From the IMG/VR virus record IMGVR_UViG_3300042330_000127, positions 1 through 21,796 of that record: 21,796 nt of DNA; one strand, 5' to 3'. The stretch's first letter is position 1. Every line of letters begins with the position of its first letter. Positions 12,473 through 17,102 of this stretch are shown here, in pieces. Origin of the DNA: a virus. The notes under the pieces are model-generated. The model ran no database searches. It saw only the letters and a list, made by a program, of their open reading frames with translations, and was not told where the DNA came from. The position numbers and the translations under genes are program-made.

Positions 12473-12891
12473 GGCTCACAAACTTTGCTGGATTTGATTT
12501 GAAGTTGAAATCTCACGAACATTCCGTTTGTCACTCCGCTAAACTGCTTATAAAACGGTTCTGCTTCATAGTTGCTCACTATCTTACCGCTACCTTGTAA
12601 AGCTAGGTGAAACCGTCTTTGCATGGTGTCGGCTTCGTCTGTGCTGTTTAACAAGTCATCTGCCCCATCGTGAGGCGAACCGTCAAACAAAAATGCCATT
12701 AATATATTTGGGTTCACGTCTACGCCCATATTGGTCGGGTTTTGCACACGAAACGGATAAAGGTGTATTTGTGGCATCGGGTTGTCCTTGATGGCTAAAT
12801 TCGCATCGCTAACACGCCCATGATAGAACGTGCCGTTCGGGTTAATGGTTTGGCAAATGCCTTTGATGAAGTTTACGGTGTCTAAGTACAT
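12469..12891 (-). CDS. Tail terminator or completion protein candidate, 140 aa
   Basis: A 140-residue soluble protein that starts MYLDTVNFIKGICQTINPNGTFYHGRVSD. An acidic segment (about 69-89, FDGSPHDGADDLL and following) precedes a MQRRFHLALQG helix and a final beta strand (MFVRFQLQIKS). Size, fold impression and position just before the gp10-like gene fit a tail terminator or connector protein, which is inference. The 12-base gap before its ATG holds TATTTTTG four bases upstream, directly after the TAG of the preceding reading frame. The start at 12889-12891 is favoured by this. Confidence 0.5.
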   Translation of the reverse strand: MYLDTVNFIKGICQTINPNGTFYHGRVSDANLAIKDNPMPQIHLYPFRVQNPTNMGVDVNPNILMAFLFDGSPHDGADDLLNSTDEADTMQRRFHLALQGSGKIVSNYEAEPFYKQFSGVTNGMFVRFQLQIKSSKVCEP

Positions 12892-13194: not shown

Positions 13195-13586
13195 ATAGGG
13201 TTCGCCTCATCAGTAGGCACTTCGCTAAAATCAATGTCGGTGTAGATTTTCGCAATGCCAATCAAAGCGTCCTTCGGTTTGTCATGTTGAAGGAGTAAAG
13301 ACTTCGCCATCTCTAGTTTGCCGTAGCTTTCACGCCCAATGTCAATTTGTTTATCTTTTTCTAAGTAAGCGTTTGGAGGCTCGTGCATAAACTGCAATGC
13401 CGTAAACAACGCCCCTAGTGCTTCGCTGTTTAGCTTGTTTAATGTTGTGGTCGGTACACCTAGCAAACAACTAGCTTGGTCAAGTGCTGTTTCATGGTTT
13501 AGAAACTCGATGTACTTCTTAAAAGGCACATCGCCCCAATTAGTCGGGATGTTAATTAGTTCCTCGTTTATTTTTCCTTGTATCAT
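13140..13586 (-). CDS. Tail-assembly-chaperone-like protein (upstream frame)
   Basis: A 148-residue protein beginning MIQGKINEELINIPTNWGDVPFKKYIEFL. It is mostly helical and acidic, with a possible globular domain in residues 14-125. Its last 12 residues (LHSKSSLSVIKD) are encoded after a T10 run and look unrelated to the rest, as expected for the unshifted product of a programmed frameshift. Its TerL-proximal position is odd for a tail assembly chaperone, which normally sits between the tail-tube and tape-measure genes. The protein may therefore be another phage assembly factor. Its ATG (13584-13586) overlaps the terminase stop region by 4 bases. Confidence 0.55.
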   Translation of the reverse strand: MIQGKINEELINIPTNWGDVPFKKYIEFLNHETALDQASCLLGVPTTTLNKLNSEALGALFTALQFMHEPPNAYLEKDKQIDIGRESYGKLEMAKSLLLQHDKPKDALIGIAKIYTDIDFSEVPTDEANPICAFFFLHSKSSLSVIKD

Positions 13587-14730
13587 ATTAGACTATTTTT
13601 TCTTATTCCTGTGCTTGTTTTATGCTTGGTTAAATACATTGTGCTGTATCGTAGTGGGTCAATGCAATGATTAAACGCATCAACTGGTATTCCTGCTTTT
13701 TTATCGTTCCAAATATAGTTAGATAATTCTTTTCGTAAATTGTGCGATGTTCGTGTTATCACTATTTGATAGTCTTGCATCTTTGTTATCCCTGCGCTCA
13801 CACTTCCTGCACCCTTTTCGCATGGTATTATATTCGTTCCTTTTCGTCTCAAATCGTCTATCAATCTAGGTTCAGCACTATCCGCAATGATTAACTCATT
13901 CGGCTTCGTGGCTTGTTTATTTGCCTCGAATATTTCGTTTGTACCCATGCCAACGGTTGAATAAAACTTTTCATCAGCGTAGATAATCTTTTTCTTTTCG
14001 TCAACCGCCACTTTGACTAAAGTTGTCGGGTCAACACTAAAGCCATAATCTTGACCGTAAACGTATGGCAAAGAATTATCGAACTCCCCATGTGTCCAGT
14101 TGGTGAAGATTGCGCCTTGTCGGTTTGCCCTTTCACCGCTTCCGTAAATTGTCCACCAATATTGGTTTGACTTTCTGCTTTCGATGTCCTCAATCTGCGC
14201 TTGGGTCAAATATGGATTGTCTTTGTAGGTGGTTATTAGCGGTGGATATTTTTCAATGTAAGGGTCAAGCCAATGTTCCAAACCTAAAGCAGGGTTATAA
14301 TCGCAAATAATTCTATGCCTTGTTCGTGGGAATAGTTGGTCGATTGTTTCTTGTGGGAACTGGTGCGCCTCGTTTATCCAAATGAAGTCACGGCTGCGTC
14401 CGTGTATCTTTGCAGGAGTGTCCGCACCGTAGTAGCTTATTATATTGCCGTGCAAATTATAATAGTGTTCGCTTTTGTTATGGTGCAAATCATTATACAC
14501 GCCACACTCAATTAGAACGTCTTTAAAGTCTTTCCAAGCCGTTGCACGTAAAGCAGTAAAGGTATCACGAACTATGTCTATATCAAGCCCTGTGTAATTC
14601 TCACATAGCCAAATGATGTAATAGATAACCGAGTAACTTTTCCCCGACCTTGTGCCACCTTGCAAAAGTGTTATCCGTTGCGACTTAACTTTTTTTTTAA
14701 AAAGCGAAAGTTTGGATTACTATTCTTCAT
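13583..14730 (-). CDS. terL: Terminase large subunit (TerL), needs a -1 frameshift or corrected A-run
   Basis: Packaging motor ATPase/nuclease. Counting from the TTG at 14663-14665, Walker A is GGTRSGKS (3-10), Walker B FIWINEA (94-100, catalytic Glu99), the coupling motif DYNP (122-125), and RNase-H-fold nuclease acidic residues are Asp205 (GQDYG), Asp261 (IADSAE) and Asp335 (HCIDPLRY). The frame has no ATG: upstream of Walker A it reads KKKVKSQRITL back to tandem stop codons. The ATG at 14728-14730, overlapping the small-terminase stop by 11 bases, reads MKNSNPNFRFLKKK and then, after nine A residues, leaves the frame and stops at 14671. A -1 shift on A-AAA-AAG, or one extra A, yields a normal N-terminus and 382 residues. 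The coordinates cover this joined gene; a TTG start at 14665 would leave Walker A only two residues from the N-terminus. Confidence 0.9.
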
Positions 14731-15028
14731 CTTCCTCGTTTAGCCATTCGGGTAAATTCTTCTTTGAAACAGAAACGTCCATTGTTTGCTTTGCTTTGCC
14801 GTATGCTCGGTCTAAAAGCACCTCCGCTGCCCTCACATCGCCTTTACTAGCTTTCGCCCTTAACGCCTTTAAAATCGCCTCACCTGCCGTTATGCCGTCC
14901 TTTTCTTCGCCAAGCACATCAGCCAATAGTTTATCCAATTCGGGTAGCTTTTTAGGTCTGCCGTTTGGGTTTCCGCTTTCGCCTTTTTTGAAAGGCTTTA
15001 GGTTTTCTTTGTTCGGGTTTTTATTCAT
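14720..15028 (-). CDS. terS: Terminase small subunit candidate (DUF5681-like, KGxSGNPxGRP motif)
   Basis: A 102-residue, highly charged protein. The N-terminus holds FKKGESGNPNGRPKKLPELDKLL (about 14-36), the KGxSGNPxGRP signature of DUF5681-type proteins, which often lie immediately before the large terminase gene and are taken as small terminase subunits. The middle is helical (TAGEAILKALRAKASKGDVRAAEVLLDRAYGKAKQ), a DNA-binding or oligomerisation helical bundle in that view. The C-terminus is acidic (LPEWLNEEDEE). The TAG stop codon is followed at once by an in-frame TAA. The start is ATG 15026-15028. The next gene's ATG overlaps its end by 11 bases. The signature is solid; the TerS role rests on context. 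Confidence 0.75.
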   Translation of the reverse strand: MNKNPNKENLKPFKKGESGNPNGRPKKLPELDKLLADVLGEEKDGITAGEAILKALRAKASKGDVRAAEVLLDRAYGKAKQTMDVSVSKKNLPEWLNEEDEE

Positions 15029-15030
15029 TG

Positions 15031-15831
15031 TTAATTCTCTGTTAATCCTTTAAATGCTTTTAGCGGATAAAACACCAATGAGTTTCTATAACCGCCCTCA
15101 AATGTAGGGATAATCGGTGTAACTCCATGCACATTTCTCCACGCTGGATAAACCAAAATAGAATTATCTTGTTGTCCTATTGTTGCATTGTAATCGGGTA
15201 TATGCAAATCACCTCCTTTTGAATTATGTTTCTTGCAAATAATAACATTTACTGCTCCAATTATGTTTTTAGTATCCCTATGGAATGGTGCTGAAATATT
15301 ATAGTTTGAAATTGAACTTGTAAATAAATTTCCAAACCTCCATTTTTGTGGCACATCTTTAAATAATTCAACTTGATGTTCATATTGTGTTGGTAATAAT
15401 TCTTTTATTAACTGCTCACTTTCCTTTGCAAGTAATAACATTGCTTTTATAAAAGTTTCTGATTTTTTATTTAAATGAACACTTGAAATTGATGGATATG
15501 GTCTTGACATATGAGGTTTTGGTGGAATACTTCCTATTATTGCACTTAATTGCTCAACTTCATTTTTGTATTTAAAGTTTCCAGTTTTTTCATCAATACC
15601 ATCTCCTGTTCTTCTTGTCAATAAAGTTTTTTTTACGTTTTTACTTCTAAATTCTGCATTTGCTAAGTCTGCCAACTTGCACATTTTTTCAGGCATTTTC
15701 GTAAGGTAAAAACCTATCGGTTCGCCATCTGCATAAAAGATACAATCTTCAGTAACATTAGGCTCAATATATTCACACGCTTCTCCAATTTTACGATTAT
15801 GCTTTACTTCAATTAAATCTATACGTTTCAT
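15031..15831 (-). CDS. 2-oxoglutarate/Fe(II) oxygenase, TET/JBP-like (putative DNA base hydroxylase)
   Basis: A 266-residue protein. The C-terminal 90 residues form a double-stranded beta-helix oxygenase pattern: HRDTKN (184-189) with Fe ligands His184 and Asp186, KGGDLHIPD (205-213), a DNSILVYPAWRNVHGVTPI segment (222-240) with the third ligand His235, and Arg249 in YRNSLVFY as 2-oxoglutarate anchor. The HRDxxN form followed by KGGxLxxP is close to TET/JBP enzymes, which oxidise the methyl group of 5-methylcytosine or thymine in DNA. Prolyl-hydroxylase-like families also use HxD...H...R, so the substrate is uncertain. The N-terminal 160 residues are unassigned. It forms a unit with the FkbM methyltransferase (3-base gap) and the ParB-like gene, and the DNA here looks more AT-rich than the flanking genes, suggesting acquisition. 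Confidence 0.65.
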   Translation of the reverse strand: MKRIDLIEVKHNRKIGEACEYIEPNVTEDCIFYADGEPIGFYLTKMPEKMCKLADLANAEFRSKNVKKTLLTRRTGDGIDEKTGNFKYKNEVEQLSAIIGSIPPKPHMSRPYPSISSVHLNKKSETFIKAMLLLAKESEQLIKELLPTQYEHQVELFKDVPQKWRFGNLFTSSISNYNISAPFHRDTKNIIGAVNVIICKKHNSKGGDLHIPDYNATIGQQDNSILVYPAWRNVHGVTPIIPTFEGGYRNSLVFYPLKAFKGLTEN

Positions 15832-15834
15832 ATA

Positions 15835-16533
15835 TTATTTATTAAATGCGAAAACATTTGTACAAGCTGGAAACCAACTTTTTTGCCAAACATCATAATC
15901 ACGTGTTTTGAATTTTGCTGTATTTCCAATATCTTTCAAATCGTTGTATTGCTTTTGTTGTTTTTCAATAATTTTCCAAAATCTCGGCAAACTATCATCA
16001 ATATCGAAACTCCATTCATAAACTAATTTTTTAAATACTTTTTTTGTATTTTCTAAAATCAACATTTCAGCTCCTTCAATATCCATTTTGCAACAATCAA
16101 ATTTTTTAGCTTCATCTTCAAAATTTAAACAAGGAACTTTTATTCCTTTGTTATTCCATTTCTTCACTATTGAATTTCTCCAAACATTGCCGTTGTTGCC
16201 AATAAATAAAATGATTTCTTTAGTGTCATTATGGACTAATGCAGCTTGTTTCACTTCTGCAGTAAATCCATTTAGTTCTAAATTCTTTTTAATCATTTCG
16301 CAATTAAAAGGGTCTGGTTCATAAACTGTAACCTTTGCACCTTTTGAACAAGCTAATAAAGTAAATGCCCCTACATTGCCACCGCAATCCATCCAAGTTT
16401 CACCTGCTTGAATTGTCATTGATTTCTTTAAATAAACTTCATTACCTAAAACTTCATCAAATGTTTTTTTATCTGACATCCCATCTCTGTAATAAAATTT
16501 AATTCCTTTGATTTCTCCTTTGTTTAATTTCAT
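15835..16533 (-). CDS. FkbM-family SAM-dependent methyltransferase
   Basis: A 232-residue class I methyltransferase. Motif I is WMDCGGNVGAF (47-57) for the SAM glycine loop; the acidic end of strand 2 is VYEPDP (70-75, Glu72 for the ribose). KMDIEGAE (149-156), the FkbM family hallmark, supplies further active-site residues. FkbM proteins methylate hydroxyl groups of sugars or small molecules; in phages their substrates are mostly unknown. The start is ATG 16531-16533, overlapping the ParB-like gene by 4 bases, and the oxygenase gene follows after 3 bases, so the three are likely one translational unit. The gene is AT-rich, with long T and A runs. Joint action with the oxygenase on modified DNA or on a glycan is possible and unproven. 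Confidence 0.87.
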   Translation of the reverse strand: MKLNKGEIKGIKFYYRDGMSDKKTFDEVLGNEVYLKKSMTIQAGETWMDCGGNVGAFTLLACSKGAKVTVYEPDPFNCEMIKKNLELNGFTAEVKQAALVHNDTKEIILFIGNNGNVWRNSIVKKWNNKGIKVPCLNFEDEAKKFDCCKMDIEGAEMLILENTKKVFKKLVYEWSFDIDDSLPRFWKIIEKQQKQYNDLKDIGNTAKFKTRDYDVWQKSWFPACTNVFAFNK

Positions 16534-17102
16534 ATCTTATTTTTTTCTTCTTTAAGATATTCCATTATCATTCCACCAACATAACCGCCTTTGTCTCTCC
16601 AAAACTTTACAAGTGCATAAGCCTCTTCATAGTGTTCTGCTTCAAATTCAATCTGTATAGCTTTCTTAACACCATCAGTCATTTCTTCAAGTTGCTTTGA
16701 AACATCTTCATCATCAAGAATAGAATAATCAACTGCTGGTGAAAAAGTTGGAACATCTAATCCCCAATCCCCTAACTCCTCAGCATCCCATTCGTTTGCT
16801 AACATCTCCCAATCCCATTCACCACCGCTAGTATTATCTTTGATAAGAAATTCACGTTGCTGTTCTTCGGTTAGTTTGTCAGCAACAATAACTGGTATCT
16901 CTTTCAATCCTGCTTCTACACAAGCTTTGTAGCGCATATTGCCACCAAGTATAATCATATCAGCGTTAACCACTATCGGACGAATGTCAAGCATTTCGGG
17001 GAAGTCTTTTATTGACTGCACCAACTTTTTAAACTTGTCATCTTTAATTAATCTTGGATTGTTTGGATTTAGTTTGATTTTGCTAGTTGCTATTTTCTTC
17101 AT
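16530..17102 (-). CDS. ParB/sulfiredoxin-domain protein (ParB-like nuclease type)
   Basis: A 190-residue protein. Residues 1-80 hold the ParB/Srx N-terminal domain: IKLNPNNPRLIK (9-20), a helix (22-35), IRPIVVN (40-46), ILGGNMRYKACVEAG (51-65), in which GGNMRY matches the GxxR box, and IPVIVAD (69-75). The C-terminal part is acidic with EWDWEMLANEWD (94-105), a stretch often following this domain in phage proteins, and a long amphipathic end. It lacks a visible ParB helix-turn-helix, so a centromere-binding role is unlikely. Phage versions commonly lie beside terminase or DNA-modification genes and may be nucleases, CTPases or modification factors. It is translationally coupled to the FkbM gene. 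Confidence 0.82.
   Translation of the reverse strand: MKKIATSKIKLNPNNPRLIKDDKFKKLVQSIKDFPEMLDIRPIVVNADMIILGGNMRYKACVEAGLKEIPVIVADKLTEEQQREFLIKDNTSGGEWDWEMLANEWDAEELGDWGLDVPTFSPAVDYSILDDEDVSKQLEEMTDGVKKAIQIEFEAEHYEEAYALVKFWRDKGGYVGGMIMEYLKEEKNKI

Follow-up and report, generated by a model that had tools for sequence, protein, structure and literature searches.

A viral TET/JBP-type oxygenase linked with a ParB-like protein and an exchangeable tailoring enzyme in a putative thymine-modifying cassette

The DNA analyzed here, referred to as the window, is the whole stretch of 21,796 nucleotides of IMG/VR virus record IMGVR_UViG_3300042330_000127 (positions 1 to 21,796). On its minus strand, a gene for a TET/JBP-type oxygenase (hereafter TET) follows the genes for a ParB-like protein and an FkbM-type methyltransferase, which lie upstream with overlapping or touching ends, and it precedes two terminase genes. 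The features are as follows:

16530..17102, minus strand: ParB-like protein of 190 aa, the constant partner of TET (PF02195, head model and linkage)
16533..16742, minus strand: constant C-terminal tail of the ParB-like protein, residues 121-190, a proposed docking element (conserved identity and linkage with TET)
15835..16533, minus strand: FkbM-type methyltransferase of 232 aa with a MDIEGAE motif, the tailoring-slot gene (PF05050, TIGR01444 and linkage)
15031..15831, minus strand: TET/JBP 2OG/Fe(II) oxygenase gene, 266 aa, an intact open reading frame with an ATG start (PF12851, invariant residues and fold), with iron ligands H184/D186/H235, 2OG-binding arginine R249, and N189 of HRDxxN
14720..15028, minus strand: neighbor in the position of the terminase small subunit (DUF5681; PF18932 and position)
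13583..14665, minus strand: neighbor, terminase large subunit (PF04466, PF17288)

A sequence-only reading of the locus had proposed a TET/JBP-like oxygenase with a likely role in DNA hypermodification from an HRDTKN motif, a KGGDLHIPD motif, a later histidine and an arginine. All of these are present in the open reading frame at 15031-15831, with HRDTKN at residues 184-189, KGGDLHIPD at residues 205-213, the later histidine at H235 and the arginine at R249 within YRNSLVFY. Three phage groups (freshwater, marine cyanophage-like and actinophage) contributed to an alignment of 48 relatives, in which H184, D186, N189, H235 and R249 are unchanged at identities down to 24%. The Tet_JBP profile PF12851 matches the window protein with 40.4 bits (curated cut-off 34.9, E = 2.3e-10), and in the same family profile search neither a prolyl-hydroxylase nor any other oxygenase family matched at E ≤ 1. 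When the window's own genome was searched with Tet_JBP, the match had an E value of 1e-12, and 0 of 14 control genomes gave one. The single window sequence found no match in the PDB with phmmer and 0 relatives in a scan of genome contigs, so that a family profile was required: a profile built from the TET alignment and searched against all PDB sequences ranks human TET2 at the top (E = 6.5e-4), followed by CMD1 and NgTet1, and a family-profile scan of the contigs recovered seven TET relatives, one of them on a Pedobacter contig. On that contig, from Pedobacter nanyangensis (L202, 7070-8438), the TET-like gene, at 33.1 bits vs 34.9 just under its cut-off, overlaps a divergent ParB-like gene that also scores below the Pfam threshold; as P. 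nanyangensis is a cultured species, the pair is a possible laboratory model.

The structure agrees with the profiles. An AlphaFold2 model of the window TET, built with the relatives' alignment, has a pLDDT of 93.7, and the top 26 rows of a Foldseek search with it are all TET-family structures (CcTet, TET2, NgTet1 and CMD1). In a second structural alignment, the model matches TET2 with a Z score of 19.4 over 242 residues and NgTet1 with 19.0, whereas the non-TET 2OG oxygenases score lower (14.7 for FTO and near 13 for AlkB). No protein or small-molecule hydroxylase thus matches better than the TET enzymes, which come first by both sequence profile and structure. Because the range aligned to TET2 spans residues 1-266, the first 160 residues lie within the TET fold and form no separate substrate domain, in contrast to the initial view that they match nothing and might set the substrate. 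The evidence for the TET family is far beyond chance, and the window gene product is a genuine TET/JBP-type DNA-base oxygenase by computed family, fold and catalytic residues, with a predicted activity. The sequence-only reading was therefore right about the oxygenase family, the terminase neighborhood (small- and large-subunit genes downstream of TET) and the likely role, which the findings below support; it was wrong about the N-terminal region, and it overlooked the FkbM and ParB genes and the evidence bearing on thymine or cytosine.

The gene order of the window recurs in many other loci. Of the 268 distinct TET sequences, 217 are immediately preceded by a ParB that bears the shared tail, 31 lie near the start of a contig or record with little upstream sequence, and the 20 others are mostly from actinophages. 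The usual order in the 217 distinct loci is ParB, tailoring gene or genes and TET, mostly followed by terminase genes. The 80 IMG/VR relatives of the window TET that were retrieved are 76-100% identical to it and are found in varied phage backbones with divergent terminases; ParB lies upstream in nearly all of these loci with enough sequence, L026 being the exception, and the marine and actinophage relatives extend this pattern. Open reading frames with the tail lie near TET in 298 of 300 cases, the other two being on contigs that end too soon. Most tail loci were collected through the cassette, and the fairer test of linkage is thus a search started from the ParB profile, in which TET was found in 78 of 80 loci and the other two contigs stop too early. 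Similarly, 80 of the 80 closest FkbM relatives retrieved sit in a ParB/TET cassette, 79 of them directly before TET; the counts from the FkbM and ParB searches refer to the closest relatives, and remote homologs outside the cassette are possible. In the remaining FkbM locus (L264, 3001-6509), an amino acid:DNA transferase (ADDT), a Rossmann-fold protein (FAD-type by eye) and a kinase-like gene stand between FkbM and TET in one cassette.

It is also evident that the slot between ParB and TET is variable. FkbM fills it in 125 loci and in 6 of 10 initially unassigned ones, about 131 in total with the window included. Family PF20691, named TET-Associated Glycosyltransferase, occupies 54 slots (two members were profiled, and one exceeds the cut-off while the other falls just short of it), and a second family, called glycosyltransferase-like by eye only, occupies 8. 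This by-eye call applies to the slot family of L041 and its relatives, which has no Pfam or PHROG match. The slot is empty in ten loci (e.g. L016 and L132), the minimal unit being ParB plus TET. ADDT (PF18724) is over its cut-off in the slots of L035, L050, L069 and L264, and the slot sets that bear it also hold GNAT acetyltransferase, sub-threshold glutamine amidotransferase and P-loop kinase-like genes. In a locus of another kind (L045, 947-2247), a glycosyltransferase and a sulfotransferase (PF03567) lie between ParB and TET, a hint that the DNA may carry a sulfated sugar. On a DNA tree of the 80 TET genes, at least 19 changes of slot content are needed, a count that recombination within TET could inflate and that comes from a quick tree search; the well-supported branches of the TET tree alone require at least 14 glycosyltransferase changes. 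Sister TETs can carry different slots, as in L028 (glycosyltransferase) and L032 (FkbM). With or without such inflation, the slot enzymes are freely recombined.

The ParB-like protein shows another kind of exchange. The window protein matches PF02195 with 35.4 bits (cut-off 26.3), and its model (pLDDT 82.5, pTM 0.56) has a head that best matches CTP- or CDP-bound ParB structures. The constant tail comprises the C-terminal 67 residues, in the window DYSILDDEDVSKQLEEMTDGVKKAIQIEFEAEHYEEAYALVKFWRDKGGYVGGMIMEYLKEEKNKI, whereas the heads fall into seven types at 45% identity. For example, the ParBs of L025 and L210 have tails of 91% identity and heads of 15%, and those of L025 and L033 again have tails of 91% identity and heads without a detectable match. 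The constant tail is absent from the actinophage and Pedobacter ParBs. Both TET and the slot enzyme are conceivable docking partners of the tail, but cassettes with an empty slot keep it, which makes TET the simpler choice. We infer that the role of ParB in the cassette is to bring TET to DNA.

Taken together, these features suggest a post-replicative pathway in which TET would add a hydroxyl to the 5-methyl group of thymines in the DNA of the phage itself and so form 5-hydroxymethyluracil (5hmU). Recruitment of TET to DNA would fall to the ParB-like protein, which has an exchangeable head and a constant tail that would dock TET, and an exchangeable tailoring enzyme, here the FkbM-type O-methyltransferase, would then decorate the new hydroxyl. 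The final base in the window phage would be 5-(methoxymethyl)uracil, which would be expected to make the DNA more resistant to host nucleases. We lean toward this full sequence of events, in which ParB targets TET, TET makes 5hmU from thymine and FkbM caps it as 5-(methoxymethyl)uracil. A more far-reaching version is a combinatorial DNA-marking machine in which the ParB head chooses the site, the tail docks TET and the end product depends on the slot enzyme, here 5-(methoxymethyl)uracil; this we put forward only tentatively. The site choice proposed for the ParB head can be likened to the exchangeable specificity domains of type I restriction-modification systems.

Thymine is the probable substrate of TET for three reasons. 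First, work by Lee from 2018 and 2022 is said to place ADDT enzymes in thymidine hypermodification, which starts from 5hmU. An enzyme that acts downstream of 5hmU is encoded beside TETs about 77-82% identical to that of the window (L050, L035 and L069), and this favors thymine over 5-methylcytosine (5mC). The same pairing of TET and ADDT, with an annotated 5hmU kinase, is found in actinophage Wooper, whereas the window as a whole lacks both a kinase and ADDT and has FkbM in its cassette. Second, all 48 of the 48 aligned TET sequences have a leucine (Leu257) where TET2 (YQH) and NgTet1 (FAH) have a histidine after the last core strand, a residue that contacts cytosine; the invariant leucine at this place also favors thymine. 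Leu257 is not decisive, however, because CcTet has lost a conventional 5mC contact and still acts on 5mC (PMC12730594). Third, C5 methyltransferases are missing from the cassette and from the whole genome of MED4-184.

The same observations bear on a cytosine version of the pathway, in which a C5 methyltransferase of phage or host would supply 5mC, TET would convert it to 5-hydroxymethylcytosine (5hmC) and FkbM or a glycosyltransferase would decorate the latter. Systems of this type, in which a phage TET acts on 5mC made by a C5 methyltransferase and the product is glycosylated, were reportedly described by Burke et al. in 2021 (cited in PMC12730594). They resemble the present cassettes in that the TET product is decorated further, with TET-associated glycosyltransferases occurring in sister cassettes, and differ in that their 5mC comes from a C5 methyltransferase, which the window cassette does not have. 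The TAGT family is also present in T-even-like phages that glucosylate 5hmC (PMC13390438), and outside the cassette, 9 of 50 records gave PF00145 C5-methyltransferase matches; one of them is L004, which encodes a TET identical to the window's. The match in L004 (2112-2756) is a protein of 214 aa encoded about 8 kb upstream, of which only the first 80-90 profile positions match PF00145; matches of similar size are present in L009, L056 and L063. On the other hand, 41 of the 50 records, many of the 50 being fragments, have no such match; one of the 41 is the complete genome of the ParB-FkbM-TET carrier MED4-184, and no C5 methyltransferase is found inside the cassette. With the thymidine-hypermodification ADDT enzymes sharing the slot and the leucine replacing the TET2/NgTet1 histidine in 48 of 48 sequences, the cytosine version appears unlikely.

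The identity of the slot enzyme in the window is clear from its profiles (PF05050, 43.0 bits, cut-off 22.7; TIGR01444, 58.7 bits, cut-off 37.7), and its MDIEGAE motif, at residues 150-156, is kept in at least 97% of 89 sequences. FkbM enzymes are O-methyltransferases, and many kinds of hydroxyl are methylated by them. Since the slot is otherwise filled by enzymes that act on a 5-hydroxymethyl group, the simplest prediction is that FkbM methylates this hydroxyl to give 5-(methoxymethyl)uracil. The co-occurrence of FkbM and ADDT in L264 suggests that FkbM may act on an acceptor other than the bare hydroxyl, and a second alternative is that TET and FkbM do modify DNA but that the acceptor of FkbM is a sugar, an attached amino acid or a different base, with ParB as a mere loading or partition factor that makes no sequence choice. 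The breadth of hydroxyls methylated by FkbM enzymes and the kinase-like genes accompanying FkbM and ADDT in L264 agree with this alternative, as does the lack of a known role for ParB domains that neighbor DNA methyltransferases or are fused to them (PMC12783734). However, FkbM is the sole slot enzyme in about 130 loci, so that the cassette itself would supply neither a sugar nor an amino acid as its acceptor, and the exchange of heads on a constant tail is the behavior of targeting domains. We regard this alternative as improbable.

TET/JBP proteins of Prochlorococcus and Mycobacterium phages are labeled queuine tRNA-ribosyltransferase or DpdA-like in PHROG 6059 and in several deposited records (NC_020847.1, NC_020857.1, NC_022064.1, PP035218.1 and others). 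That the protein is such a DpdA-like tRNA-guanine transglycosylase inserting 7-deazaguanine into DNA is scarcely credible and was rejected on profile and fold, as no transglycosylase family matches at E ≤ 1 in Pfam or NCBIfam, the structure model matches TET2, NgTet1 and CMD1 (a 2OG oxygenase fold), and Hutinet et al. define DpdA2 of Vibrio phage nt-1 by TGT similarity. The public name of this TET family can now be corrected.

Related arrangements are found in isolated phages. In Prochlorococcus phages MED4-184 and MED4-117, the order ParB-FkbM-TET before the terminase is the same as in the window and the tail is present, although the phage backbone and host differ; their TET is 50% and their FkbM 58% identical to those of the window, and the three genes are annotated as DNA methylase, hypothetical protein and queuine tRNA-ribosyltransferase. 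Homologous TETs also occur in Gordonia phage Wooper, Rhodococcus phage Tonitrus and the gene 2 proteins of Mycobacterium phages, with ParB upstream and the tailoring genes and terminase in one block. These actinophage operons differ from the window in that TET is only about 25-30% identical, the tailoring genes come after TET instead of between ParB and TET, ParB has no constant tail, and FkbM is absent. JBP1 and JBP2 carry extra domains, whereas targeting in the window cassette would come from a separate ParB-like protein. In kinetoplastids, these two TET/JBP oxygenases act on thymine in DNA, and the product is glycosylated to base J (PMC11065319). Tonitrus has been reported to carry a set of five genes, putatively for thymidine hypermodification (PMC11955845). 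The CmoX/CmoY carboxymethylcytosine systems likewise make a handle and decorate it in two steps, often with a ParB-domain neighbor without known role, but their handle is made on cytosine by a C5 transferase and here by an oxygenase (PMC12783734).

Already known are TET/JBP enzymes in phages, the glycosyltransferases that accompany them and, in actinophages, the arrangement ParB-TET-ADDT. As far as checked, the dominant pairing with FkbM, the swapping of slot genes flanked by the constant tail and TET, and the exchange of heads on ParB appear to be new, and no report of FkbM with TET, or of 5-(methoxymethyl)uracil in phage DNA, was found in the limited literature searched. The commonest tailoring enzyme of this lineage is FkbM, and it points to an as yet undescribed base, which is directly measurable because the isolated phages MED4-184 and MED4-117 carry ParB-FkbM-TET. 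For the job of ParB beside DNA-modifying enzymes, the exchange of heads on a constant tail, which accompanies TET wherever the sequence is long enough, offers a concrete and testable answer, namely that of a targeting subunit. These results suggest that in many phages of fresh and marine waters, thymines of the phage's own DNA are marked in a mix-and-match fashion, and a thymine-specific, ParB-guided oxygenase, if true, would be of practical use in the laboratory.

At the far end of the window, a galactosyltransferase-7-like gene (PF02709, PF13733) and an unassigned neighbor lie on the minus strand (348-956 and 953-1594). These genes were considered as candidates for the system but set aside, as they are near TET in no other fetched locus. 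The major capsid protein of the window had no match in the phage collection. Several genes of the window have no Shine-Dalgarno sequence, and TAnnTTTG-like motifs are located upstream of positions 12891, 17588 and 2210 on the minus strand; this pattern suggests that the host belongs to the Bacteroidota.
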